Assembly: GCF_023715895.1 (NCBI RefSeq)
Contig: NZ_JAMBOO010000034.1
Span: forward strand, 1 to 42,653
DNA from: Domibacillus indicus
Lineage (GTDB): Bacteria > Bacillota > Bacilli > Bacillales > Domibacillaceae
Reading direction: 5' to 3'
DNA length: 42,653 bases
Shown here: positions 51 through 42,007 of the stretch, piece after piece
Layout of the letters: each line of letters opens with the position of its first letter
How positions within the stretch are numbered: the stretch's first letter is position 1
Notes under the pieces: generated by a model
What the model saw: only the letters and a program-made list of their open reading frames with translations
Told to the model about the DNA's origin: nothing
Databases searched by the model: none
Translations under genes and position numbers: made by a program

Positions 51-127
51 AGTTGGAGCTCCTCATCTGTTTTAGGTCAAGTGTACGTGACCTTAATTTT
101 TCTGTCCAGATAAGTGTAGACGCTCCA
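1..127 (-). mobile_element. IS3-family element, orfA-proximal end (cut by window edge)
   Basis: The sequence matches the right end of the complete IS3 element at 22826-24041 almost base for base, in the same orientation. The terminal inverted repeat ends at 127 (..GTAGACGCTCCA). The first 16 codons of orfA lie at 1-50 (start codon complement at 48-50). The rest of the element would lie left of the window. The iteron array that follows begins directly at the IS tip, so the element probably inserted into that array. Confidence 0.9.
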
Positions 128-170
128 GTGTACATAGGTAAAAGTATATTTACGCTTATGTACACTTTTG
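127..170. repeat. Iteron array A (GTRTAC repeats)
   Basis: Two AAGTGTACATA-type units face each other (127-136 forward, 157-168 reverse) around an AAAAGTATAT unit at 140-149. They share the core of arrays at 3523-3570, 3700-3763 and 6761-6838. The left unit is cut by the IS3 tip. The array lies 130 bp upstream of the fic start, so it may be an operator or a partition/replication site. Its function is unknown. Confidence 0.65.
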
Positions 171-301
171 TTGTTAAAGAGGTATCTGCAGCCAAAAGAC
201 AACGGTGTACCCTCTAAATTCCCTGTATATTGATTAGTGAACACCTGTTTCATACAGTGAGATAAAAAGAAATTAATTAAATAAGAAAGGAGGCGGCCAG
301 G

Positions 302-427
302 GTGTTTCAAGTAATTGACGAAAAAAAGAAGCAGCTGAATGCAAAATGTCCTCTGCCTGCTTATACATTAAGGAGCTTAAAGGAAAAATTACTTCTCGAG
401 TGGACGTATCATTCCAATGCGATTGAA
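302..427 (+). pseudogene. fic, 5' part (42 codons) of interrupted Fic-family AMP-transferase
   Basis: GTG start at 302 after a strong AAAGGAGG (287-294). The 42 codons give the N-terminal helix of a Fic protein and end in the residues SNAIE. Joined to base 2078 the frame continues with GNSLTLKET, giving a 242-residue class II Fic protein whose inhibitory motif (S/T)xxxE(G/N) reads SNAIEG. An IS200/IS605-type element (428-2077) sits between the E and G codons. Family knowledge: Fic enzymes transfer AMP or other nucleotide parts onto target proteins, and the Glu of this motif blocks productive ATP binding. As found, the 5' part would make a short peptide ending in element sequence at 487. Confidence 0.85.
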
Positions 428-645
428 CAAAAAATTAGCGCCGCATTCCCCTTCAAAATCTCCGATTTAGTGGGGGTTAGGCGCTAAGGTCTTTATTCTT
501 CTCGTTCTTCTATCTTTTTATTATGCCAATTGCCACTTCTTACCTATCATCATTCATACTGATTCTCTTTTGTTTTACAATTGATTTCCATTTTGATACG
601 ATCAACCTATCATAAGGACTACAAAATGGAAAGGAGGGTTTGGTC

Positions 646-2004
646 ATGAAAGTTGCGAAGTCGCTGCTGCACAAAATTACAAACCAGACAGAAATCTTCC
701 ATGCTACGCTGGATATTTACAATGACGCTTTGGCTTATGTGATTGAGGTCATTGACAAAGAATTTGATGATACCGAATGCCTGACAACAAAGTCGATTGT
801 GCCGGCAGTGGAAAAACTGATTCACGCAACCAAATCAAACCCTCTTCCGAAGTACAAAGAGTTTAATGAGCGTTTTTACAAGTTTCCATCCTACTTCCGT
901 AGAAGTGCCATTGCTTCTGCTTTTGGCAAGGTAAAGAGCTTCCGCTCTAACTATCAAAATTGGGAAAAAGAGCAGAAACACGCTCTTTCCGAAGGAAAAA
1001 GATTTAAGAAACATCCTCCACGGCTGCAGGTGGAACATAAAGAATTCCCTGTTTTTTATCGAGGGAACATGTTTAATAAAACATCCGATACATCTGCACA
1101 AATTAAGGTGTTCTATCAGAATGACTGGGTATGGATGGATATCGAATTCAAAGGACAAGACCACTACAAACGTGGTGTCTGGGAATGGAAAGAAAACAAC
1201 CCTAAGCTGATTAAGCGGGGAAAGAAATTCTTCCTTTCCATCAGTTATGAAAATAAAGTTACTTTAACAAAAACACCTATTCAAGAGCAAAAAGTGTGTG
1301 CGGTAGACCTCGGATTGACAAATTCTGCGGTTTGTTCGGTTATCGATGCAACAGGCACTGTCTTAGGACGGACGTTTATTGACCAGCCTAAAGAAAAAGA
1401 CCGGCTGCATACGTTAACGAACAAACTGCGGAAAGCCCAGCGGGCAAGTGGCCGCATTCATGCGCCGAATTTTTGGCGGCAGATCAATGGGTACCAGCAG
1501 CATATTGTCCGCCACACCAGCCATGAAATTGTAAAATTCGCATCAAAGCATGACTGTGACGTTATCGTATTCGAATACCTGGGCAGAATGAACAGCCCGA
1601 AGGGGTTCTATGGAGCCAGGAAACTTCGCTTCAAGCTTCATGGGTGGCGAAAAATTGGCATCCAGAACAAAGTGGAAGAAATGGCGCACTACCTAGGCAT
1701 GCGCATTTATCGGATCAATCCGCGAAATACCAGCGCCCTCGCGTTCGATGGTTCTGGAAAAGTAGAACGAAATCAGAAAAAAGACCTTGCCACATTTTCA
1801 ACAGGCAAAGTCTATCATGCGGATTTATCTGCTTCGTATAATATCGGCGCCCGTTATTTCATTCGGGCTTTTAAAAAATCCATTTCGGAAACGAAATGGT
1901 TGTCTCTTCAGGCAAAAGTTCCTGAGCTGGCAATAAGGACATCTCAGACCTTGTCTTCGTTCATTAGTCTCCATCATGCACTCGGGCTTCCGCAGGAAGC
2001 TTAA
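646..2004 (+). CDS. tnpB: TnpB-family RNA-guided nuclease, zinc-ribbon-less variant
   Basis: A 452-residue TnpB. ATG 646 follows AAGGAGGG (631-638) at 7 nt. RuvC-type acidic residues are visible: D221 in AVDLGLTN, E310 in VFEYLGRM and D393 in HADLSASYNIG. The region between the last two blocks normally holds a four-cysteine zinc ribbon; here it reads NPRNTSALAFDG...FSTGKVYHAD with no cysteines. In studied relatives TnpB uses an RNA made from the element's 3' end to cut DNA next to a short motif equal to the insertion target, here inferred as TTGAA. The flanking guide would come from fic sequence after 2077. About 20 substitutions separate it from copy 2 at 20127. Confidence 0.9.
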   Translation: MKVAKSLLHKITNQTEIFHATLDIYNDALAYVIEVIDKEFDDTECLTTKSIVPAVEKLIHATKSNPLPKYKEFNERFYKFPSYFRRSAIASAFGKVKSFRSNYQNWEKEQKHALSEGKRFKKHPPRLQVEHKEFPVFYRGNMFNKTSDTSAQIKVFYQNDWVWMDIEFKGQDHYKRGVWEWKENNPKLIKRGKKFFLSISYENKVTLTKTPIQEQKVCAVDLGLTNSAVCSVIDATGTVLGRTFIDQPKEKDRLHTLTNKLRKAQRASGRIHAPNFWRQINGYQQHIVRHTSHEIVKFASKHDCDVIVFEYLGRMNSPKGFYGARKLRFKLHGWRKIGIQNKVEEMAHYLGMRIYRINPRNTSALAFDGSGKVERNQKKDLATFSTGKVYHADLSASYNIGARYFIRAFKKSISETKWLSLQAKVPELAIRTSQTLSSFISLHHALGLPQEA

Positions 2005-2036
2005 CCAGCTGATGTTGTACTGTATTCAAGATAAGG

Positions 2037-2077
2037 GATGCTCCATCAAAATCTTTGATTTAGGTGGAGAGGTTCAC
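2037..2077 (+). ncRNA. Putative 3' end of TnpB guide (omega) RNA / right-end hairpin
   Basis: Right end of the element, with stem CTCC/GGAG and inner TCAAA/TTTGA. By analogy with ISDra2 and IS608 relatives, the guide RNA scaffold would cover the tnpB 3' end through this hairpin and the guide would be the next ~16-20 nt (fic bases from 2078). Inferred by family only. Confidence 0.4.
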
Positions 2078-2680
2078 GGAAACTCACTAACCTTAAAAGA
2101 AACAAAGGTCGTTCTTGAAGGCATTACTGTAGGCGGCAAAACCATGCGGGAACATTTAGAAGTAATTAATCATCAAGAAGCCGTCAGGTATATTCAGGAA
2201 ATCGTAATAACGAAGGAGCCTCTATCCCAATCACAAATCAAAAGTATTCACCGGCTTGTCTTAAAAGGAATTGATGATAAGCATGCTGGTGTGTACCTTG
2301 ATCAGCAAGTATCTATTTCCGGAGCAGAGCATATTCCGCCTGAACCATTTCTTTTAAAAGAAAAGATGGAAGAGCTTGTTAAATGGCATGAAGGAGAGGC
2401 ACAGCAGCTTCATCCGGTTGAACGGGCTGCCAAGTTGCATGCCATCTTTGTCGGCATCCATCCATTCATTGACGGAAATGGCCGCACGTCAAGGCTGCTG
2501 TTAAATTTGGATTTAATGAAGTCAGGGTTTCCGCCAATCGTTATTAAAGCAGAAAATCGTCTGGCTTACTATGGTGCATTAGACAAGGCGCACATAACAG
2601 ATGATTTTCAGGACTTTGTCGAATTAGTAGAGCAAGAAGTGAATCACACGCTGGATTTGTATTTGTCTGCGGTGAAATAA
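2078..2680 (+). pseudogene. fic, 3' part: catalytic Fic domain detached from its inhibitory helix
   Basis: Two hundred codons continuing the fic frame, from GNSLTLKET to the TAA at 2678-2680. The catalytic signature HPFIDGNGRTSR (HPFxxGNGRxxR) is complete. The frame is also open upstream through the element's right end to ATG 1976, which overlaps the last 29 bases of tnpB, so a 234-residue fusion with 34 element-encoded residues could be made; an internal ATG lies at 2144. Neither start has a clear Shine-Dalgarno. If translated, the product would lack the regulatory Glu and be a deregulated Fic domain. Otherwise it is a dead fragment. Confidence 0.8.
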
Positions 2681-2732
2681 GTGAGGACAATGATAATCCA
2701 GGTGGCCAAATAGAAGGTTAAACGTTGAACGA

Positions 2733-2776
2733 TAAGAAAAAAGCACCGTTCTGTTTTTAAAGCGGTGTTTTTTCTT
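2733..2776 (+). terminator. Bidirectional intrinsic terminator
   Basis: AAGAAAAAAGCACCG pairs with CGGTGTTTTTTCTT around a 14-nt loop, with T runs on both strands. It lies just after fic. A related hairpin is at 3799-3834. Confidence 0.75.
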
Positions 2777-2790
2777 ATGGTCTTCCCTGT

Positions 2791-3321
2791 CTTTGCTACT
2801 ACGAAGTGTTTAATGTGATCAAACAGGCAGAGGGTCTCCAAAGCAAGCGGGAGACGGAAACATTTGAACACGATCCAATTGAGTCCGCTCAGCAGATCGT
2901 CGATGGATATACAGATTCCCCTGTTATCCGCCATCATTCCGGGCGTGCGGTTTACTTTCCAAAATTGGATCGTGTCAGTGTCCCGCCGATAAAGGATTAC
3001 CGAAAAGCGGAAAAGTATTATTCGGTCCTGTTTCATGAGATGATTCACAGTACAGGCCATCAAAGACGGCTTGCCCGCAAAGGGATTACACAAAGCGGCG
3101 TGTCATTTGGAGACGAGACCTATTCAAAAGAAGAGCTGGTTGCAGAAATTGGCGCGGCGATGCTGTGCGGAGTAGCAGGTATTGAAAATACGACAATCGA
3201 AAATAGTGCCAGTTATATCGAGTCCTGGCTACGTGTACTAAAAGAAGATTCCAAATTGATTGTCTATGCGGCAGCGCAGGCTCAAAAAGCAGCTGACTAT
3301 AAAACAATAGTAGCTTCTTAA
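2791..3321 (+). pseudogene. ArdC-like antirestriction / zincin metallopeptidase, N-terminally truncated
   Basis: The reading frame is recognisable from YYEVFNV (2797) to the stop at 3321. It shows the C-terminal zincin domain of ArdC-like proteins: FHEMIHSTGHQRRL (HExxH-type metal site) and EELVAEIGAAML (downstream Glu), then YIESWLRVLKEDS and AAAQAQKAADY. In the family this domain follows an N-terminal ssDNA-binding domain, and the proteins protect incoming plasmid DNA. Here that first domain is missing, replaced by the terminator at 2733-2776, and there is no ribosome site before GTG 2806. Probably a remnant; it points to a conjugative-plasmid past. Confidence 0.8.
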
Positions 3322-3340
3322 TTAATAGCTGTGTTTGACA

Positions 3341-3384
3341 AAAGAGCCTTCTTATTTAAGTACCTTATAATAAGAGGACTCTTT
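3341..3384 (+). terminator. Hairpin after the ardC remnant
   Basis: AAAGAG and TTCTTATT pair with AATAAGA and CTCTTT; a short T run follows. Likely terminator of the truncated ArdC reading frame. Confidence 0.5.
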
Positions 3385-3522
3385 ACCCTCGATTATCTAT
3401 ATCTGCAATTAGAAGGCCGGGTGTTATGATATCCCTGATTAGGATGATGATTCTTGTTATTAGCGTTATATCGTTGCCTTTTAGCTAACCTATTGAGGAA
3501 AACAAACAATCAGTTAGTGAGC

Positions 3523-3570
3523 ATAAGTATACCTAATAAAAAGTATACATGTGATTAGGTATACTTTTGT
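3523..3570. repeat. Iteron array B
   Basis: Two direct 16-bp units, ATAAGTATACCTAATA (3523-3538) and AAAAGTATACATGTGA (3539-3554), then one reversed unit whose complement reads ACAAAAGTATACCTAA (3555-3570). The second and third units make an inverted repeat of AAAAGTATAC. Same family as arrays A, C and D. Confidence 0.8.
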
Positions 3571-3605
3571 AATGGAGATATTCGTACACAACAGGTATTC
3601 AAAAC

Positions 3606-3659
3606 CATAAAGTCATACAAAAAGGAATTATCAAGCTTCCTCTTTTGTATGGCTTTATA
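3606..3659. repeat. Long stem-loop between iteron arrays B and C
   Basis: CATAAAG, CATACAAAA and GGA on the left pair with TCC, TTTTGTATG and CTTTAT on the right, with single mismatches. There is no T run, so it is not an obvious terminator. It sits centrally between two iteron arrays. Confidence 0.5.
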
Positions 3660-3699
3660 AGCGGGTTCGTTTACGAAGATAATTAAAAAGTTAGCGGTC

Positions 3700-3763
3700 A
3701 AAAGTATACCTAATCAAAAGTGTACCTAAACACAAGTATACATATGATTACGTACACTAGTGT
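3700..3763. repeat. Iteron array C
   Basis: Three contiguous direct 16-bp units: AAAAGTATACCTAATC (3700), AAAAGTGTACCTAAAC (3716), ACAAGTATACATATGA (3732). A reversed unit follows at 3748-3763 (complement ACACTAGTGTACGTAA). The GTRTAC core recurs every 16 bp exactly. It is the best-ordered array after D. Confidence 0.85.
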
Positions 3764-3798
3764 TTATAATGAATGAAATTCGACTGTGTAACGACAAG

Positions 3799-3834
3799 AA
3801 AAAAGCGCTGCTTATTTTTAAAACAGTGCTTTTT
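3799..3834. terminator. Bidirectional terminator
   Basis: AAAAAAGCGCTG pairs with CAGTGCTTTTT around an A/T-rich loop. It lies between array C and the convergent gene ending at 3872 and resembles the hairpin at 2733-2776. Confidence 0.65.
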
Positions 3835-3871
3835 ATGATTCCGTATAACATTGTGTTAGACCAAAAAGGGA

Positions 3872-4570
3872 TCAGCCCTCTAAGATTTCTAATAAAGGAC
3901 GGGCTTCGTATAAATGATCGGCAAACTTATTTAAGAATTTTCGCCGCTTTTGTTTGCTCATCTTATTTGCTGCTGTCGTATCTAATAACTCAATATAATA
4001 GGAGAGCTCAACCGCAATAATATCTGGTTCATTAAACTTATATTCTTCTGCCGCCTGCTCAAAATTTTTATCCAAATCATCATTTTTATCAGTAGCCATT
4101 AATGCTTTGTGTATGGTCTTTATAACTGCACTTTCCTTAGCCTCATCAAATACTGCTGAAACACACTCCATAACTGGTTCATAATCGCTAAGCTGAGCGG
4201 CTGCTTCTGCTATATATTTGGTAAAGGGCTTGTACAAAACATCCAGTCTGCTCTTAAAGTCTTGAGGTTTTCCAGTGAATTGCAGCATAAACATTTCCTG
4301 AACAAATTTCCTTTTCCATGTGACAGGGTGGAATTCTCTTAAAGCATCATTGAAAAACCGCTTCCGAAAGTATTCGGACACTTCATGCGTTTTTGCCATT
4401 TCTTTTAAAAATTCCTCAATCGCACCTGCTGTATTTTTAGATAGGTTATGCTGTTGGTATTCAGACACAAATACAGCTACAGATTGTCTGTATCCATGAT
4501 CAAAATATTCTTCATCCAGGTACTTCTTCTGTATACTGCCAGAATTCCAATCTGAATGTTTATCAAACAT
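3872..4570 (-). CDS. Uncharacterised 232-residue protein
   Basis: ATG at 4570 is preceded on the minus strand by AGGGAGGG. The product is soluble, charged and predicted alpha-helical (repeated EEF, KKF, EAAEE patterns), with no signal peptide, membrane segment, cysteine motif or catalytic signature I recognise. It stands alone: iteron array C lies beyond its 3' end and a 0.5-kb gene-poor stretch lies upstream. Length and ribosome site argue that it is real. Function unknown. Confidence 0.75.
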   Translation of the reverse strand: MFDKHSDWNSGSIQKKYLDEEYFDHGYRQSVAVFVSEYQQHNLSKNTAGAIEEFLKEMAKTHEVSEYFRKRFFNDALREFHPVTWKRKFVQEMFMLQFTGKPQDFKSRLDVLYKPFTKYIAEAAAQLSDYEPVMECVSAVFDEAKESAVIKTIHKALMATDKNDDLDKNFEQAAEEYKFNEPDIIAVELSYYIELLDTTAANKMSKQKRRKFLNKFADHLYEARPLLEILEG

Positions 4571-5107
4571 GAAAACCCTCCCTTGCTCTTTTTAAAGAAA
4601 CAGGCTTTTCCAATGCGTACCAACATCCGCATCGTACCATTCATACTTCTTGGTTTCCATATTTTTCTGAACTCTTAACATTTCTTTAATATAGAGGGTA
4701 ATGGCTAAGGGTTTAACGCCAGAGAAAATAGCTGTCCAAATAGCCCAAAATATACGGTCTTTGGAGCAGCAAATTATTTAGCTGCAGGAATAAGAAGTAC
4801 CGTTTATGCTTTTAGCTAATAGAGATTTAAAAGGCAGGAAACAGCCTGTTGCTAACAGTTCATCCGTATCGAATCACATTATTACTCCGGCTGACACATT
4901 AAGCGGTCTTTTCTCAGGGAGAAAGACCGCTTTTGTTATATGCCGGCTCACAAAGCAGCGCTAATCATCCATACACTGCTTCTACGTAGTTAAGCAGAGA
5001 CATATAGTAAAAAATGTACTGGGAAATGTGAAAAAATTGCTTCCACAGCTGCAGGGAGACCTGAAGAAGAAACAAATTGTAGTCATTTATTGTTTAGGAG
5101 GAGAAAA
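4571..5107. other. Gene-poor stretch upstream of threonine synthase
   Basis: Contains a 26-codon open frame at 4701-4781 (MAKGLTPEKIAVQIAQNIRS), preceded by AGAGGGTA, of unknown meaning; a terminator at 4901-4937; and an open frame 4965-5111 whose last codons (..VVIYCLGGEK) overlap the threonine synthase start as ATGA. The last lacks a clear start and may be the tail of a lost upstream gene. Confidence 0.4.
4901..4937 (+). terminator. Intrinsic terminator
   Basis: AAGCGGTCTT pairs with AAGACCGCTT, followed by a T run. No intact gene ends just before it. Confidence 0.7.
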
Positions 5108-6322
5108 ATGAAAAACTATAGCTATATCTCACATTTAGAGTGCCCAAAATGCGGTGAAGTACATGAGGAAAAAAAGGTACAACAATTATGTAAGTGTGGT
5201 TCACCATTATTGGTGCGCTATGATTTAGAGAAAGTGAAAGCAAACGTGTCACGTGAAGAGATTGCAAATCGTCCAAATAGCTTATGGAGATATCATGAGT
5301 TACTGCCTGTTCATGAAAAGGAGAATGTTGTAACACTCCGTGAAGGAATGACGCCGTTTGAAAGACTCCCATCATTAGGTGCAGAATATGGATTAAATCA
5401 TTTATACATAAAAGATGAAGGCGTGATTCCAATGGGTTCTTTTAAAACACGGGGTGCGAGTGTTGGTATTTCAAAAGCAAAAGAACTGGGTGTAAAACAC
5501 TTAGCCATGCCAACAAACGGTAATGCAGGCGCGGCTTGGGCGCTGTATGCAGCAAAAGCAAATATCAAAGCTACAATTGTCATGCCTTTAGATGCGCCGC
5601 AAATTACACGTAAAGAAGTTTATATTGCCGGTGGAGACTTGCATCTTATCAACGGTTTGATCAGTGATGCAGGAAAAGTTGTGGGCCACTTAGTTCAAAA
5701 CCAAGGAGTATACGATGCTTCTACACTTAAAGAGCCCTATCGTATTGAAGGTAAAAAGACAATGGGCTATGAGATTGTCGAACAATTTGGATGGAAAGTG
5801 CCTGATGTTATTTTGTACCCAACAGGCGGGGGAGTAGGCATCATTGGAATTTATAAAGCCATTCTTGAACTGCAGCAATTGGGCTGGATCGAAGAGGGGA
5901 AACTTCCACGTTTAGTAGCTGTTCAAGCAGAAGGCTGTGCGCCAATTGTAGAAGCCTGGAAAAAAGGCGAAAAAGAATCCAAATTCTTTGAAGATTCAGC
6001 GACATGTGCATTTGGCATTAATGTTCCTAAAGCATTGGGGGATTTCTTAGTTCTTGAAGGGCTTTATGGAACAGAAGGCTGTGCGATTGCCATTTCAGAT
6101 GAGGAATTATTGAAGGCGCAAAAACAAGTAGCTTCGTTAGAAGGAAACTTTGTCTGCCCAGAAGGAGCAGCAACTTTTGCGGCAGCTAGAATCCTGCGTG
6201 AACAAGGTTGGATCCAGGCAGACGAGCATGTTGTATGCCTTAACACGGGTTCAGGGCTCAAATATCCGGAAACAGTTAAAATCGAAGGTGTAGAAACACT
6301 TCAGCCGGGACAGGAAATATAA
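5108..6322 (+). CDS. thrC: Threonine synthase (zinc-ribbon form)
   Basis: A PLP enzyme of 404 residues. It would convert O-phosphohomoserine to threonine, the last step of threonine synthesis, in the cytoplasm. ATG 5108 follows TAGGAGGAG. Residues 12-30 hold a small zinc-ribbon-like motif (CPKC then CKC). K113 in GSFKTRG is the expected Schiff-base lysine, PTNGNAGAAW the substrate/phosphate loop, PTGGGVGI the PLP phosphate glycine loop, and NTGSGLKYP the C-terminal signature. Bacillus subtilis ThrC is about 350 residues without this N-terminal ribbon, so this is the longer form and may be a second copy. Other PLP lyases of fold type II are possible, but the ribbon plus FKTRG favours ThrC. No other threonine gene adjoins it. 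Confidence 0.88.
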   Translation: MKNYSYISHLECPKCGEVHEEKKVQQLCKCGSPLLVRYDLEKVKANVSREEIANRPNSLWRYHELLPVHEKENVVTLREGMTPFERLPSLGAEYGLNHLYIKDEGVIPMGSFKTRGASVGISKAKELGVKHLAMPTNGNAGAAWALYAAKANIKATIVMPLDAPQITRKEVYIAGGDLHLINGLISDAGKVVGHLVQNQGVYDASTLKEPYRIEGKKTMGYEIVEQFGWKVPDVILYPTGGGVGIIGIYKAILELQQLGWIEEGKLPRLVAVQAEGCAPIVEAWKKGEKESKFFEDSATCAFGINVPKALGDFLVLEGLYGTEGCAIAISDEELLKAQKQVASLEGNFVCPEGAATFAAARILREQGWIQADEHVVCLNTGSGLKYPETVKIEGVETLQPGQEI

Positions 6323-6462
6323 CCCCTGAAAGATGATTATGAGAAAAGAATTTACCTTGTCATCACGAGATGCAAGGGGGATCATGCCTAATTACATGAA
6401 TCCTGTTCTTTATAGTATTCATCAACTTCAAATGAAAACACAGTGATAGAGGAGTGTTTAAA

Positions 6463-6667
6463 ATGTGTCTAAGTATACAAAGAGTATATAACGACTTGCC
6501 TGCAGGCCGCCTCATTTTTGGCCCGCAGCAGCCAGTTCGTTCAACAAAACTGCAAGTTTTACGCCGTCATTTGCGAAGCTTGCGTGAAAGAGTTCAATGA
6601 TACTTGCTGCCGTGAATGTGCACAAGAGGTTGATCTAAAAAGAATGTATGTTTTACTTGCTAAGTAA
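6463..6667 (+). pseudogene. Small cysteine-rich protein, apparently frameshifted
   Basis: ATG 6463 has a good ribosome site (AGAGGAGTG). Its frame closes at 6600 without a recognisable motif. In another frame (6497-6667) the sequence encodes CKFYAVICEACVKEF followed by NDTCCRECAQEV, a zinc-knuckle-like cysteine pattern with no start of its own. A single indel between them would give one small zinc-binding protein. The join is a guess. Confidence 0.35.
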
Positions 6668-6760
6668 CAAACGAAAAAAAAGCGGCCACTCATCTCCCGC
6701 TCATTGCGAAGCAATTTGAAGGGTTTTCTGGCCTGTAATGCGATCAAAAAGTTGGTAAGC

Positions 6761-6838
6761 ACAAGTATACCTACACACAAGTATACCTAAATACAAGTAC
6801 ACCTATACAAAAGGATACTTTTGTATAGGTGTACTTGT
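6761..6838. repeat. Iteron array D with long perfect hairpin
   Basis: Three contiguous direct 16-bp units, ACAAGTATACCTACAC (6761), ACAAGTATACCTAAAT (6777) and ACAAGTACACCTATAC (6793). Then 6793-6813 is the exact complement of 6818-6838, forming a 21-bp perfect stem with a GATA loop. Same core and period as arrays B and C. Confidence 0.85.
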
Positions 6839-6947
6839 GTGAATAGAAAATACCCCCAATAATAAAACCTTAATAAAATAAGATTTTTATCACTCCTAGC
6901 GAGGCTACCCTCTTCTTTAACCCGCTAAGTAACCGGTAGGTGAACTT

Positions 6948-6983
6948 CTCCATCAAGATCTTTGATTTAGGTGGAGAGGTTCA
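6948..6983 (+). mobile_element. Solo right end of the zinc-less tnpB element
   Basis: Thirty-six bases match the right-end hairpin of copies 1 and 2 (CTCCATCA..TTTAGGTGGAGAGG) with one difference, ending GGTTCA. No left end or tnpB is attached, so it is an excision or deletion relic. Confidence 0.75.
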
Positions 6984-7557: not shown

Positions 7558-7853
7558 ATGGGTTACCCAAAAAAATTCGCAAGAAACAAAAGAGAAAAGA
7601 GCTTTTAACTGTTCTTGCTGCCAGGATTCCAGACAAGTCTATACGATAACTTTAAAGAGTATTATGATGACTTGGACCTGTCTATGAGAGAAGATGGGTA
7701 TCTCCTGATAGAACGTGAAACCACCTTAACAAAAAAGCGGCAGAAACTTCTTCAGCCTACGTGAGGGAATACACTAAGGATGAAGATGCAGGTACTTTGA
7801 ATACAAAACCTGTCATCAAACAGACAGCTAAAAGCAAGATGAATACAAAGTGA
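7558..7853 (+). pseudogene. Decayed copy of the RHH-C2H2 protein
   Basis: Homologous to the intact gene at 19125-19613. Pieces in several frames match it in order: FARNKR, TVLAARIPD, DNFKEYYDDLDLS..YLLIERE, then TLNTKPVIKQTAKSKMNTK. At least two frameshifts and stops break the ribbon-helix-helix, and the finger region is missing. A second relic lies at 21860-22154. Confidence 0.7.
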
Positions 7854-7975
7854 TTCAATCTAAAACATGGTCACAAAAGACTCATGGTTATCCCGTTATT
7901 AAACACAGTACACTATGTGAAAAATTCAAACTAAATATTAAAATAACTGTCATTAAAACAATGAATAGAACCATG

Positions 7976-17079: not shown

Positions 17080-18192
17080 ATGGCGGCACCGCGTGAAGAA
17101 AGGATTGCTGAACAAAGAATTGAAGCTATGCTGCCATCCTTTCCTTTTTATGTTCAGGAATATATACGTGATAAACGCAGATATGGCAACACTCCCTCTA
17201 CCCAGCTGGACTACCTATATGATTTCCGGATCTTTTTTGAATGGCTTTTAAAAGAAGGCTTAGCCCCTTCAAGCCAATCTGTCTCTGAGATTCCCTATTC
17301 CATACTGGCTACGCTTAGAAAGCAGGATGTAGAGTTTTTTATTGATTATGTTCGGGATGAACCTTTTGAAGCCAAAAAAGATGTTTGGAAAAAGCGTTCA
17401 GCTACCCGTGTAACTCGGATCATTCAGTCATTAAAATCTCTGTTTCGCTATTTAACAGAGGAAACGGAGCTTGAAAACGGAGAATGCTACTTTGATCGTA
17501 ATGTAATGACAAAGATTAAAATCGGGAAAGCAAAAGAAACGGCCAAACGGCGCTCTCAGCGTATCAGTACTTTACTTTTGAATGACGATGATATCCAAGA
17601 GTTTTTGTTCTTCCTGAAGAATGAATATGAGCTTACCCTGACTCCAAGAAAACAGGCCATGTACCTGCGTAACAAGGAACGGGATATTGCCCTTATCTCT
17701 CTTATGCTAGGCAGCGGGATCCGTGTTAGTGAAGCGGCAGGGCTTTTGATGAACAGTATTAATCATAAGAAGAATACCATAGATGTAACGCGGAAAGGCG
17801 GAAAGGAAGATACTGTGCTGGTCCTCCCTTCTACAATGGAAGACCTTCGCGCGTACCTAGATGTGCGCGAAGCAAGATACCAGCCACAAAAACAAGAATC
17901 CTTTGTCTTTTTAACACGTTATCAGGGAAAAGCGCAGCAAATCTCTATCCGGTCTATTGAGACCAATATTAACCAATATACACAGGCTTTTACGTCTGGA
18001 CGAGCCATGAGTCCACATAAATTGCGGCATTCTTTTGCTGGCGGCTGGCTCCGTAATGGCGGTGACATTGTAAAACTTCGCGATCAATTGGGGCATAGTT
18101 CGATTGAAACGACTTCTCTTTATACAAATTTAAAACAGGAAGAAAGTATTTCTATTATAGAGCAAATGGATAAATCAAGAAAAAACAAATAA
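17080..18192 (+). CDS. Tyrosine recombinase, XerS type
   Basis: A 370-residue recombinase; ATG 17080 follows AGGAG. The N-terminal SAM-like domain (residues 15-150) has the XerS-style opening MLPSFPFYVQEYIRDK and YDFRIFFEWLL. Catalytic residues: R215 (GSGIRVSEA), K239 (TRKGGK), H313 and R316 (HKLRHSF), H339 (LGHSS) and Y348 (SLYTN). XerS proteins are single-subunit resolvases that work without XerD on a dif-like site near their gene. Three candidate sites lie upstream, the nearest 40 bp away. The role is probably resolution of replicon multimers, or integration of the element. A terminator follows. Confidence 0.9.
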   Translation: MAAPREERIAEQRIEAMLPSFPFYVQEYIRDKRRYGNTPSTQLDYLYDFRIFFEWLLKEGLAPSSQSVSEIPYSILATLRKQDVEFFIDYVRDEPFEAKKDVWKKRSATRVTRIIQSLKSLFRYLTEETELENGECYFDRNVMTKIKIGKAKETAKRRSQRISTLLLNDDDIQEFLFFLKNEYELTLTPRKQAMYLRNKERDIALISLMLGSGIRVSEAAGLLMNSINHKKNTIDVTRKGGKEDTVLVLPSTMEDLRAYLDVREARYQPQKQESFVFLTRYQGKAQQISIRSIETNINQYTQAFTSGRAMSPHKLRHSFAGGWLRNGGDIVKLRDQLGHSSIETTSLYTNLKQEESISIIEQMDKSRKNK

Positions 18193-19124: not shown

Positions 19125-19613
19125 CTACATGTTTTGTTCTGCTTTTCTTTGACGGACCATCTCATTCGCTCTCTTAATGTATTCCTCGTTTGTAAAAACA
19201 GCCTGGGTAGTGGTATTGTGCTTTCTTGCGTGCCTTGAGAAGCTTTTAGCATTGGACCAAGAACTGCAAATCGGACACGGCAGCTCCCCATCAACTTTCC
19301 ATAGTTTGGTGGTGAATCGCTTTGTATTCGTCTTCATTTTTACTGTATGTTTAATGACAGGTTTTGTATTCGTAGCCGCTTCTTCGCCATTCTGGATGTG
19401 TTCACTTATGTATGCTGCAGGCTCTTTCGCTCCTTTTTGATCAGCGGTTATTTCGCGTTCTACCAGGAGATAAATAGCCTCACTAATAGAAAGGCCTAAC
19501 TCATCGCAACGCTCTTTAAAGTCACCATATAGGCTGTCTGGAAGGCGGGCAGTCAGAACAGTTGAGGACTCTTTTCTTCTTTTGTTTCTTGCGAATTGTT
19601 CCAGGTAGCTCAT
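19125..19613 (-). CDS. Ribbon-helix-helix protein with C-terminal C2H2 finger
   Basis: A 162-residue protein. ATG 19613 is chosen for its AAGGAGAG site; an upstream ATG at 19667 has none. Residues 18-55 (TVLTARLPDSLYGDFKERCD, LGLSISEAIYLLVERE) look like a CopG/Arc-type beta strand plus two helices. A linker of about 50 residues follows, then residues 113-132: C-x2-C, eleven residues, H-x3-H (CPIC..HARKH), the spacing of a classical C2H2 finger, which is uncommon in bacteria. Expected to bind DNA as a dimer, perhaps autoregulating through GTATAC sites at 19640-19690. Decayed copies lie at 7558 and 21860. The partner genes are unknown. Confidence 0.8.
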   Translation of the reverse strand: MSYLEQFARNKRRKESSTVLTARLPDSLYGDFKERCDELGLSISEAIYLLVEREITADQKGAKEPAAYISEHIQNGEEAATNTKPVIKHTVKMKTNTKRFTTKLWKVDGELPCPICSSWSNAKSFSRHARKHNTTTQAVFTNEEYIKRANEMVRQRKAEQNM

Positions 19614-20053: not shown

Positions 20054-21705
20054 GTGAACCTCTCCACCTAAATCAGGGATTTTGATGGAGCATCCCTTAT
20101 CTTGAATACAGTACAGCATCAGCGGATTAAGCTTCCTGCGGAAGCCCGAGTGCGTGATGGAGACTAATGAACGAAGACAAGGTCTGGGATGTCCTTATTG
20201 TCAGATCAGGAACTTTTGCCTGAAGAGACAACCATTTCGTTTCCGAAGTGGATTTTTGAAAAGCCCGAATGAAGTAGCGGGCGCCGATATTATAAGAAGC
20301 AGATAAATCCGCATGATAGACTTTACCGGTTGAAAACACGGCAAGGTCTTTTTTCGGGTTCCGTTCCACTTTTCCAGAGCCATCGAACGCCAGGGCGCTG
20401 GTGTTTCGCGGATTGATCCTGGAAATGCGCATGCCCAGACAGTGCGCCATTTCTTCCACTTTGTTCTGGATGCCTATTTTTCGCCACCCATGAAGCTTGA
20501 AGCGAAGTTTTTTGGCTCCATAAAATCCTTTCGGCATTTTCATCCTGCCCAGGTATTCGAATACGATGACGTCACAGCCATGCTTTGCCGCAAATTTTAC
20601 AATTTCATGGCTGGTGTGGCGGACAATATGCTGCTGGTACCCATTGATCTGCCGCCAAAAATTCGGCGCCTGAATACGGCCGCTTGCCCGCTGGGCTTTT
20701 CGCAGTTTGTTCGTTAACGTCTGCAGACGGTCTTTTTCTTTAGGCTGGTCAATAAATCTTCGGCCTAAGACAGTGCCTGTTGCATCGATAACGGAACAAA
20801 CCGCAGAGTTCGTCAGTCCAAGGTCTACCGCACACACTTTTTGCTCTTGAATAGGTGTTTTCGTTAAAGTGACTTTATTTTCATAGCTGATGGAAAGAAA
20901 GAACTTCTTCCCCCGCTTAATCAGTTTCGGGTTGTTCTCTTTCCATTCCCAAACACCGCGTTTATAAAGATCCTGCCCTTTAAATTCGATATCTGTCCAT
21001 ACCCAGTCATTCTGGTGGAATACCTTGATCTGGGCAGTCGTATCAGATGTTCTGCTGAACATGTTTCCGCGATAAAAAACAGGGAACTCTTTATGCTTTA
21101 TTTGCAGCCGAGGAGGCTGTTTCTTAAATATTTTTCCTTCGGAAAGAGCGTACTTCTGCTCTTTTTCCCAATTTTGATAGTTAGAGCGGAAGCTCTTTAC
21201 CTTGCCAAAAGCAGAGGCAATGGCACTTCTGCGGAAGTAAGACGGAAACTTATAAAAACGCTCGTTAAACTCTTTGTATTTCGGAAGAGGGTTTGACTTG
21301 GTTGCGTGAATCAGTTTTTCCACTGCCGGTACAATCGACTTAGTTGTTAAGCCTTCGATATTATCAAACTCTTTGTCGATAACCCGGATGATAAAGGACA
21401 GGGCCTCATTGTAAATATCCAGCGTATCATTGAAGATTTCGGTCTGGTTTGTAATTTTGTGCAGCAGCGACTTCGCAACTTTCATCACCAAACCCTCCTT
21501 TCCATTTTTTAGTCCTTATGATAGATTGATCGTATCAAAATGGAAATCAATTGTAAAACGAAAAGAGAATCAGTATGAGTGATGATAAGTAAGAAGCAGC
21601 AATCAGTGTAATAAAAAAAGATAAAAGAACAGGAAGAATAAAGACCTTAGCGCCTAACCCCCACTAAATCGAAGATTTTGAAGGAGAATGCGGCGCTAAT
21701 TTTTG
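20054..21705 (-). mobile_element. IS200/IS605-type element, tnpB only, copy 2
   Basis: A 1652-bp near-copy of 428-2077. On the minus strand the left end starts CAAAAATTAGCGCC at 21705, after TTGAA, and the right end finishes GGTTCAC at 20054. It has the same hairpins. It has landed in or just before a short unknown reading frame that continues to 19973. Expected guide: TGCAGCTTTGCTAAATGC. Confidence 0.9.
20127..21485 (-). CDS. tnpB: TnpB-family RNA-guided nuclease, zinc-ribbon-less variant, copy 2
   Basis: A 452-residue protein, the same length as copy 1; ATG 21485 follows AGGAGGG. D (AVDLGLTN), E (VFEYLGRM) and D (HADLSASYNIG) are kept at the same positions, and again no cysteines lie in the ribbon region. 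About 20 amino-acid differences from copy 1 are spread through the protein with the frame intact, which suggests that both copies evolved under constraint rather than one being a fresh duplicate. Confidence 0.9.
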   Translation of the reverse strand: MKVAKSLLHKITNQTEIFNDTLDIYNEALSFIIRVIDKEFDNIEGLTTKSIVPAVEKLIHATKSNPLPKYKEFNERFYKFPSYFRRSAIASAFGKVKSFRSNYQNWEKEQKYALSEGKIFKKQPPRLQIKHKEFPVFYRGNMFSRTSDTTAQIKVFHQNDWVWTDIEFKGQDLYKRGVWEWKENNPKLIKRGKKFFLSISYENKVTLTKTPIQEQKVCAVDLGLTNSAVCSVIDATGTVLGRRFIDQPKEKDRLQTLTNKLRKAQRASGRIQAPNFWRQINGYQQHIVRHTSHEIVKFAAKHGCDVIVFEYLGRMKMPKGFYGAKKLRFKLHGWRKIGIQNKVEEMAHCLGMRISRINPRNTSALAFDGSGKVERNPKKDLAVFSTGKVYHADLSASYNIGARYFIRAFQKSTSETKWLSLQAKVPDLTIRTSQTLSSFISLHHALGLPQEA

Positions 21706-21806: not shown

Positions 21807-21859
21807 GTAATATATTATGTTTTATCGTCCAAGCCTTATAAAAGTTAAATATGAAGGTA

Positions 21860-22154
21860 GCTTCCCATTGTTTGACGGTAAATCGTCTTGTACTCTTTTT
21901 GTTTCTACTGTATGTTTAATGACAGGTTTTGTATTTACAGTAAATACACCCTCTTCGTTGGTGTATTCCCTCATGTATGCTGAAGGATCTTTCGCTGTTT
22001 TTGGATTAGCGGTGGTTCCGCGTTCTACCAGGAGACAAATAGCTTAGCTTATGAAGATTACAATGCTCCTTAAAGTTGTCATATAAGCTGTTTGGCAAGC
22101 GGGCAGTTAGAACGGTTTTCTTTTGTTTCTTGCGAATTGTTCCAAGCAGCTCAG
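21860..22154 (-). pseudogene. Second decayed copy of the RHH-C2H2 gene
   Basis: The minus strand shows LEQFARNKRK, then a stop where the strand (TARLPDSL) should follow, pieces of SLYDNFKE, and VNTKPVIKHTVETK. The start codon has become CTG. The finger cysteines are not found. The flanking GTATAC sequence is kept (22172-22232: GTATACC, ATGTATACAAG). Confidence 0.7.
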
Positions 22155-41158: not shown

Positions 41159-42007
41159 TTAAACAGCTAGCTGCCGGTACGCAACCGGCGGCTGGTTGTT
41201 TAATTTCGCTTGAATACGGATATGGTTATAGTAGTGAATATACCTTTCAACAGTTTGCACTACGATGGCCGTCGTAGTGCTTTCCAGGTTGTCGAGGTAG
41301 AACGTTTCAGACTTTAGTGAGGAATGAAACGATTCGATGGAGGCATTATCAGCGGGCGTCCCTTTACGGGACATGCTCATGATAATGCCTTTTTCTCTGA
41401 CTTTCTGCTGGTACGCATAAAATGTGTAAACGGATCCCTGATCACTATGAAGGATGCATTCTCCAAGCAGAGGAGGAAGCTGCGACAGGGTATCGAGCAC
41501 AAAGTTTGTATCCTGAAAGTCTCTGATCAAATACGCAATGATTTCGCCGTTATATAAATCCTGGATACTTGAAAGATACAGCGGTTTCTGCCCAAAAGGC
41601 AAGTACGTAATATCTGTGACAAGCTTTTGAAGGGGCTGACTTGCCTGAAAATTACCTTTTAAAAGATTGTCGGCAATATGATAAGGCTGTCCCGTCTGCC
41701 TGCGTTTCTTCACTCTCACCCGGCACTGCCAGCCATACTTCTGCATCACACGCTGCACCCTTTTATGATTTATAGGGATTTCCCGCTTTAATAAGGCAGT
41801 GATTTTACGGTAGCCATATCGAAATTTATTCTCCCGGCACAACGTGCCGATTTTTCGTTCAATCGCCTGCCTGGAAGTTTCTATCCGGCTCTTCTTCCTC
41901 CAGCGATAATAAGTAGATCTTGGTATGCCCAGATGACTGCAGATTTCCTTAATGGGCATCTCTTTTTTCAACTCATCAACTAATTCTACAGCTACTTCTG
42001 GTACCAC
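41159..42007 (-). CDS. IS3 transposase OrfB
   Basis: A DDE integrase; independent ATG at 42007 but normally made as an OrfAB fusion. HTH_21 part (FRYGYRKITALLKREI), D in LVTDITYLPF, D in ILHSDQGSVY, E in NASIESFHSSLKSE. The frame is open upstream to the A6G slip at 42028-42034. Confidence 0.92.
   Translation of the reverse strand: MVPEVAVELVDELKKEMPIKEICSHLGIPRSTYYRWRKKSRIETSRQAIERKIGTLCRENKFRYGYRKITALLKREIPINHKRVQRVMQKYGWQCRVRVKKRRQTGQPYHIADNLLKGNFQASQPLQKLVTDITYLPFGQKPLYLSSIQDLYNGEIIAYLIRDFQDTNFVLDTLSQLPPLLGECILHSDQGSVYTFYAYQQKVREKGIIMSMSRKGTPADNASIESFHSSLKSETFYLDNLESTTTAIVVQTVERYIHYYNHIRIQAKLNNQPPVAYRQLAV

Follow-up and report, generated by a model that had tools for sequence, protein, structure and literature searches.

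Repeats and their position

What is a short DNA element doing in four places within the first 7 kb of a bacterial contig, each time with the same 16-bp step? The question is posed by contig NZ_JAMBOO010000034.1 of Domibacillus indicus (assembly GCF_023715895.1), whose whole length of 42,653 nucleotides is referred to here as the window. The window is contig C109 of its source genome, G000 (5.08 Mb, 180 contigs); other Domibacillus genomes and contigs carry handles of the same form. An earlier note, made from the window alone, had described four arrays of a 16-bp repeat and likened them to sites bound by ribbon-helix-helix (RHH) plasmid partition proteins, such as the omega repressor, or by replication initiators. 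The explanation that we favour, with moderate confidence and from sequence comparison, is that the arrays are dispersed copies of the ParB-binding site, of the centromere or operator type, of a plasmid partition system encoded on another contig, C108.

All array coordinates given in the earlier note hold on re-reading of the sequence (Table 1). The array unit is the hexamer GTRYAC within an AAGTRYACTT context, recurring with a period of exactly 16 bp. Thirteen of the 15 hexamer slots in the window are exact, the exceptions being GTATAT at 144 and GGATAC at 6813. The strict periodicity is confirmed by seven exact GTRYAC pairs and four exact triples at 16 bp, whereas 500 dinucleotide shuffles of the window averaged 0.01 and 0. 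With the consensus of the earlier note (at most three mismatches), 15 matches were found in the window where 2.83 were expected, the largest of 100 shuffles giving 6; 12 of these fall in the four arrays, and the isolated three (12330, 18933 and 35411) equal the number expected by chance. In the window together with 46 stretches picked from earlier matches (733,877 bases), 97 GTRYAC pairs were spaced at 16 bp and 71 at 32 bp, compared with 0 and 1 in the reversed sequence, and every other spacing from 6 to 40 bp occurred at most four times.

The arrays had been described as closed by a reversed unit. An inverted half is indeed present, but it belongs to a palindrome whose centre reads on both strands: the outer boxes are directional (AAAAGTATACCTAATC) and the central box is palindromic (AAAAGTATACTTTT), so that the orientation of the array turns around, as in the order AAAAGTGTACCTAGTC-AAAAGTATACTTTT-GACTAGGTACACTTTT on C108. 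The placement outside genes stands for open reading frames (ORFs) of at least 90 amino acids, none of which contains an array in the window, but not for shorter mechanical ORFs, two of which (77-310 and 6559-6780, on the minus strand) overlap arrays 1 and 4. Likewise, no array follows position 6840 of the window, as had been noted, but 31 more lie in the fetched parts of the source genome. An Rfam scan of the window gave no match at the arrays.

A partition locus with the same lattice

On C108, the ParA protein (270 amino acids) is a deviant Walker ATPase with KGGVGKT near the N-terminus and no N-terminal helix-turn-helix (HTH); it matches Pfam AAA_31 at 2.8e-39, and its best NCBIfam match is PrgP of pCF10 (NF041283; 231.7 bits, below the curated cut-off of 400 bits). 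The parB gene, coding for 174 amino acids, overlaps parA at its downstream side. A profile of 13 ParB sequences matches Reg576 (6gyg) in the PDB with an E-value of 5.8e-4; Reg576 is, we take it, an RHH protein, and the small ParB is probably one also. No relative was confirmed when the profile was run against viral contigs.

The array lattice begins approximately 12 bp past the parB stop in G000 and G016, and the G011 contig breaks off within an array at this place. A tandem cluster 3' of parB comprises seven arrays in G000 and nine in G016, in repeats of approximately 210-225 bp that contain arrays and decayed parB-tail DNA; the G000 cluster is split by an IS3-type insertion. Upstream of parA there is a different repeat, spaced mostly at 53 bp and carrying GTAGAAATTTCTAC. 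Repeat-type sequences flank the par operon on both sides, the 53-bp repeats upstream of parA and the lattice arrays 3' of parB. With at most one mismatch, GTAGAAATTTCTAC was found in 7 of the 13 Domibacillus genomes, nearly always beside parAB. Away from parAB, G008 has a single site on C44, and in G013 a block stands at the end of C25. The one-mismatch search missed a variant of the 53-bp repeat that is present in G014.

The proposal of RHH partition proteins as the readers of the arrays is supported in qualified form by location and homology, the signs being the lattice 3' of an RHH-like parB, an operator box, the parAB clusters and related sites elsewhere. The omega repressor family as such does not fit, with a 16-bp period of GTRYAC boxes rather than contiguous heptads and a ParA nearest to PrgP.

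C108 also carries transfer genes (VirB4-like AAA_10, TcpC, coupling-protein domains, an M23/SLT peptidase), a gene for an actin-like protein, a Replic_Relax match below cut-off and a rep-like HTH_36 gene (C108:38691-39692), which adjoins parA, itself on the opposite strand. The rep-like protein is 37-44% identical to plasmid proteins of Priestia and Bacillus badius (best 8 of 61 records). This gene beside parAB, together with direct repeats that have inverted ends, would suit the other half of the earlier proposal, namely that the arrays are iterons for a replication initiator and parts of plasmid origins. We consider this highly improbable, as the 35 arrays of G000 are dispersed over 11 contigs and not clustered at the rep gene, and the block that does lie between rep and parA is the 53-bp repeat family.

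Operator boxes, a ParB residue and sites in relatives

In most homologues, the parA operator consists of two boxes within 100 bp upstream of the gene, at a spacing of 15-16 bp. The first box is GTAGAA and the second GTRYAC in G000, G011, G016, G013 and G009, with an extra GTACAC upstream in G009, and both boxes are GTRGAA in G007, G008, Planococcus MB-3u-03, P. lenghuensis, two P. maritimus and Paenisporosarcina. G014 has a single GTAGAA; two Kurthia, Sporosarcina and Lysinibacillus capsici have neither box type. The ParB strand reads K-T-[IL]-K in G000, G011, G016, G013 and G009, the position of the T being S in the other eight aligned sequences, and GTRYAC occurs in the parA operator of all five K-T-[IL]-K genomes and in none of the remaining 12. 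The alternating pattern of the strand makes it probable that the T/S residue faces the DNA. That one second box has changed at the same place suggests that a single protein reads both box types.

The ParB of G009 and that of D. indicus share 66% identity. Directly 3' of parB in G009 lies GTGCAC-10-GTATAT-10-GTACAC, a 16-bp lattice with other linkers; a search with this lattice sequence (at most three mismatches) found no second copy in G009. Among 11 plasmids of other genera, ACCTAA stands no further than 110 bp from the parB stop in seven (two Kurthia, four Planococcus and Lysinibacillus irui). In six of these seven it is accompanied by a core that differs from GTAGAAATTTCTAC by at most one mismatch, and a Sporosarcina plasmid has a GTAGAAATTTCTAC-like core after parB without ACCTAA. 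In Kurthia, this site reads AAAAGTAAACCTAAC plus the core. Because the Kurthia unit AAAAGTAAACCTAAC is so close to the Domibacillus unit AAAAGTATACCTAATC, with one substitution and one missing base, the 3'-parB sites of the two genera are taken as homologous.

Distribution among genomes

Run over the window and the 46 stretches, a lattice detector returned 64 arrays, against 1 in the reversed control: 35 in G000, 19 in G016, 5 in G012, 4 in G011 and 1 in G015. In G000, 15 arrays lie on C108 and 20 on ten other contigs, the total including the two-slot parA operator. A 28-base array pattern (at most three mismatches) gave 64 matches in G000, 33 in G016, 10 in G012, 9 in G011 and 1 in G015, with none in the other eight of the 13 Domibacillus genomes and one match for the reversed control in all 13; one of the matches, G012:C1:141304, was not among the stretches run through the detector. 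Across 397 genomes of the order, nine of them Domibacillus, 16 of the other 388 had a single match each; there was no array signal above background outside the genus in these 388, the reversed control giving 19 single matches over the list. Among the genomes searched, the arrays are restricted to Domibacillus. A scan of named genomes gave matches in Domibacillus sp. PGB-M46, in D. indicus and on one contig of a Bacteroidetes metagenome-assembled genome. BLAST of window positions 3400-3900 against the PLSDB plasmids gave no match, and positions 1-25000 matched 10 plasmid records, each covering at most 5%.

Arrays of G012 occur on its 3.39-Mb contig. This contig is C2; C1 measures 1.71 Mb and may be a large second replicon. 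G000, G012, G015 and G016 have genome sizes of 4.7-5.1 Mb, compared with 3.2-3.8 Mb in eight other Domibacillus.

Flanks and placement of the dispersed copies

The DNA beside the dispersed arrays resembles the DNA after parB. A flank motif derived from three parB 3' regions, ACTTAGTAAKC, was scored at 46 arrays, all 18 of stretches L011 and L094 being excluded. At 28 of the 46, a match in 8 or more of the 11 positions adjoins the lattice, where shuffled flanks give 1.4; the four window arrays score 9, 9, 7 and 5 of 11. In addition, 42 bp of DNA neighbouring array 3 share 81% identity with the C108 sequence at the 3' end of parB, and in G012 a decayed parB 3' fragment stands beside an array.

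Only one of the 64 arrays falls within an ORF of at least 90 amino acids, a 117-amino-acid ORF that may be spurious, gene coordinates in unannotated stretches being those of mechanical ORFs. After arrays less than 1.2 kb apart had been collapsed and loci without two neighbours dropped, 33 loci remained. Of these, 14 fall between convergent genes, where gap length predicts 25% (P 0.025), and 5 between divergent genes. The convergent bias and the few divergent gaps argue mildly against promoter operators.

A further possibility is spread without function: copied by recombination and by insertion sequence (IS) activity, the parB-3' site would now be no more than a passenger repeat, or else a miniature inverted-repeat transposable element (MITE). 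Duplicated segments, such as an array with a GNAT gene present on both C109 and C92, agree with this, as do the similar array flanks on C106 and C115 and the persistence of arrays in G012 without an intact close parB. We nevertheless regard it as unlikely: the 16-bp register is retained although linkers and flanks vary, and the arrays avoid ORFs. Among the flank pairs listed, moreover, flank homology stops at differing distances from pair to pair and no common element boundary appears; the known MITE which the earlier note had allowed for is not supported by these pairs.

Which protein reads the arrays

A second candidate protein is encoded in the window itself. The product of 19125-19607, RHH-like with a C2H2-like stretch, could be a multi-copy regulator of accessory DNA, with the arrays as its operators. 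It tracks array presence perfectly, being found, intact or as fragments, in exactly the five array-bearing genomes and in none of the eight others, and decayed pieces of its gene are found close to arrays on C92 and C109. Its promoters carry GTATACATA in 3 of 5 printed cases (GTATGCATA in G016, GCATACATA in G011) and ATATGTAT in all five. These promoter boxes, however, are approximately 30 bp apart, off the 16-bp lattice; copies of the gene at G016 C32 and G012 C1:451117 have no array in the stretches fetched around them; the arrays are not enriched in divergent gaps, as given above; and the RHH and zinc-finger (C2H2) matches of the protein fall below the Pfam cut-offs. In G009, the lattice stands 3' of parB and a gene of the 19125-19607 type is absent. 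For this reason, and because of the clustering at parAB, the box in the operator and the related sites of other genera, ParB is preferred, and we think it improbable that the arrays serve the 19125-19607 protein. As a separate observation, window positions 7578-7865 and 21855-22145 are remnants of the same gene, which is multi-copy with many decayed fragments.

Under the preferred reading, each near-palindromic AAGTRYACTT box, at intervals of 16 bp or approximately 1.5 helical turns, would hold a ParB dimer, and the dimers would jointly occupy the two to five boxes of an array. With a 16-bp step, neighbouring boxes would face opposite sides of the helix, and a row of boxes may therefore be wrapped. 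ParB bound at the box next to parA would repress the operon, by analogy with the type Ib systems treated in the part of PMC5016525 drawn on here. The main centromere would consist of the tandem cluster 3' of parB together with the 53-bp repeats upstream of parA; the dispersed intergenic arrays would be extra partition sites for the DNA carrying them, which ParA would then move.

Several results weigh against ParB as the reader. The repeats upstream of parA differ in sequence (GTAGAAATTTCTAC), and ParB would need to read both kinds. In G000, 20 of the 35 arrays, including the four of the window, lie on contigs other than C108, and G012 and G015 bear arrays without an intact close ParB. Conversely, more distant parB genes are present in array-free genomes, and ParB tracks the arrays less well than the 19125-19607 protein does. 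The assignment of ParB to the RHH fold meets two negatives: Pfam RHH models give no match to it, and a single-sequence AlphaFold model of its C-terminus is poor (predicted local distance difference test score 68), with no RHH protein returned by a PDB fold search. The correlation of operator with T/S residue may reflect one evolutionary event, and since the change may have occurred once, the link is suggestive. The 46 flank-scored arrays are not independent, some lying in duplicated or orthologous segments. Both ACCTAA and the core are lacking after parB in three of the 11 plasmids from other genera, those of Paenisporosarcina, P. lenghuensis and L. capsici, and a strict palindrome test was passed by the two Kurthia only.

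A bolder form of the proposal, which we regard as doubtful, is an RHH centromere distributed across replicons, with the ParB of a conjugative plasmid bound to tens of arrays, located not only on that plasmid but also on other accessory DNA and in the chromosome. If this were so, array-bearing segments would be partitioned with the plasmid or tethered to it, and homologous arrays would be joining points for the plasmid's mosaic gene content.

Comparison with known systems

The sites are of a known kind; their number and spread are unusual, as is a site sequence that changes along with ParB. Type Ib partition systems with small proteins have one or a few local centromeres, according to the part of PMC5016525 consulted. 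The delta/omega system of pSM19035, a type Ib case, is similar in that an RHH centromere protein acts on direct and inverted repeats and the parS sites double as operators, but as described there it has three sites, each present twice, at promoters and made of heptad repeats (PMC5016525), whereas Domibacillus has tens of arrays with a 16-bp period and a bias towards convergent gaps. Type Ia plasmids with scattered sites (OB; N15) likewise have centromere-type inverted repeats across the genome, although the centromere proteins are of the HTH kind in that account (PMC5016525) and the small protein here is RHH-like.

In pBMB165, the overlapping genes orf6 and orf10, for a ParA-type and a small protein, are needed for stable maintenance and have been compared with repB/repC of pAD1 (excerpted from PMC1626470). 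Repeats lie upstream of the first gene, as here, with three more downstream of the second (PMC1626470, same excerpt). Unlike the Domibacillus arrays, those are 8-bp repeats in two local blocks, reported as required for replication, and the excerpt describes no dispersed palindromic 16-bp lattice (PMC1626470). The island SGI1 offers another parallel, its parS-like sites hijacking the ParABS system of IncC plasmids, so that ParB sites lie outside the ParB-coding plasmid; the difference, in the portion of the source used, is that SGI1 has two sites on one element with function shown (PMC10954446), while the many sites here are predicted. Among titles and abstract openings on dispersed RHH centromeres, Domibacillus plasmids and scattered parS sites, no report of these arrays was found.

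The site next to parB appears to have changed together with ParB and the operator and then to have multiplied to approximately 35 places in G000. Relatives represent stages: G007, G008 and G014 are without the site, and G009 has, as far as searched, a single copy. Together they provide a natural series in which the spread of a centromere can be studied, along with the questions of whether scattered sites favour or impair segregation and whether other DNA can hitch-hike on a plasmid partition machine.

Coordinates and neighbouring features

Table 1. Positions of the arrays, their flank motifs and the repeats upstream of parA (window coordinates unless a contig is named).
Feature	Position	Hexamer slots or motif	Remarks
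Array 1	126..171	three: GTGTAC 128, GTATAT 144, GTACAC 160	left side abutted by what looks like an IS3-type end
Array 2	3523..3568	three: 3527, 3543, 3559	palindrome 3525-3566
Array 3	3700..3761	four: 3704, 3720, 3736, 3752	
Array 4	6761..6838	five: 6765, 6781, 6797, 6813, 6829	palindrome 6788-6843
Flank motif of array 2	3512..3522 (+)	AGTTAGTGAGC	resembles DNA after the parB stop, 9/11 matches
Flank motif of array 3	3689..3699 (+)	AGTTAGCGGTC	7/11 matches
Flank motif of array 4	6750..6760 (+)	AGTTGGTAAGC	9/11 matches
Repeats between rep and parA	L011:57-699 = C108:40057-40699	twelve GTAGAAATTTCTAC sites	mostly 53 bp apart

Other repeats and genes lie close to the arrays. Array 4 is abutted on its left by a dispersed repeat of approximately 115 bp (6637-6754), of which at least ten partial copies were found in G000 and at least six in G012 among the matches listed. 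To the right of array 1, a Fic gene appears split into a 5' part at 302-487 and the rest at approximately 1976-2680 (Pfam Fic). The two parts, within 302-2680, flank an ORF of 454 amino acids (640-2004) that has no Pfam match, is presumably TnpB-like and has a near copy at 20127-21491. A 36-base sequence at 2041-2076 and 6948-6983 has many near-identical copies across five Domibacillus genomes; one copy stands just 3' of the TnpB-like ORF and is possibly the end of that element.

The sole Rfam match in the window is rli23 (41253-41355, 53.6 bits), which overlaps an ORF at 41159-42007 that looks like an IS3-type transposase. A tyrosine recombinase gene at 17080-18192 scores above the NCBIfam XerS cut-off and adjoins an RsfA-family gene, likewise above its cut-off.

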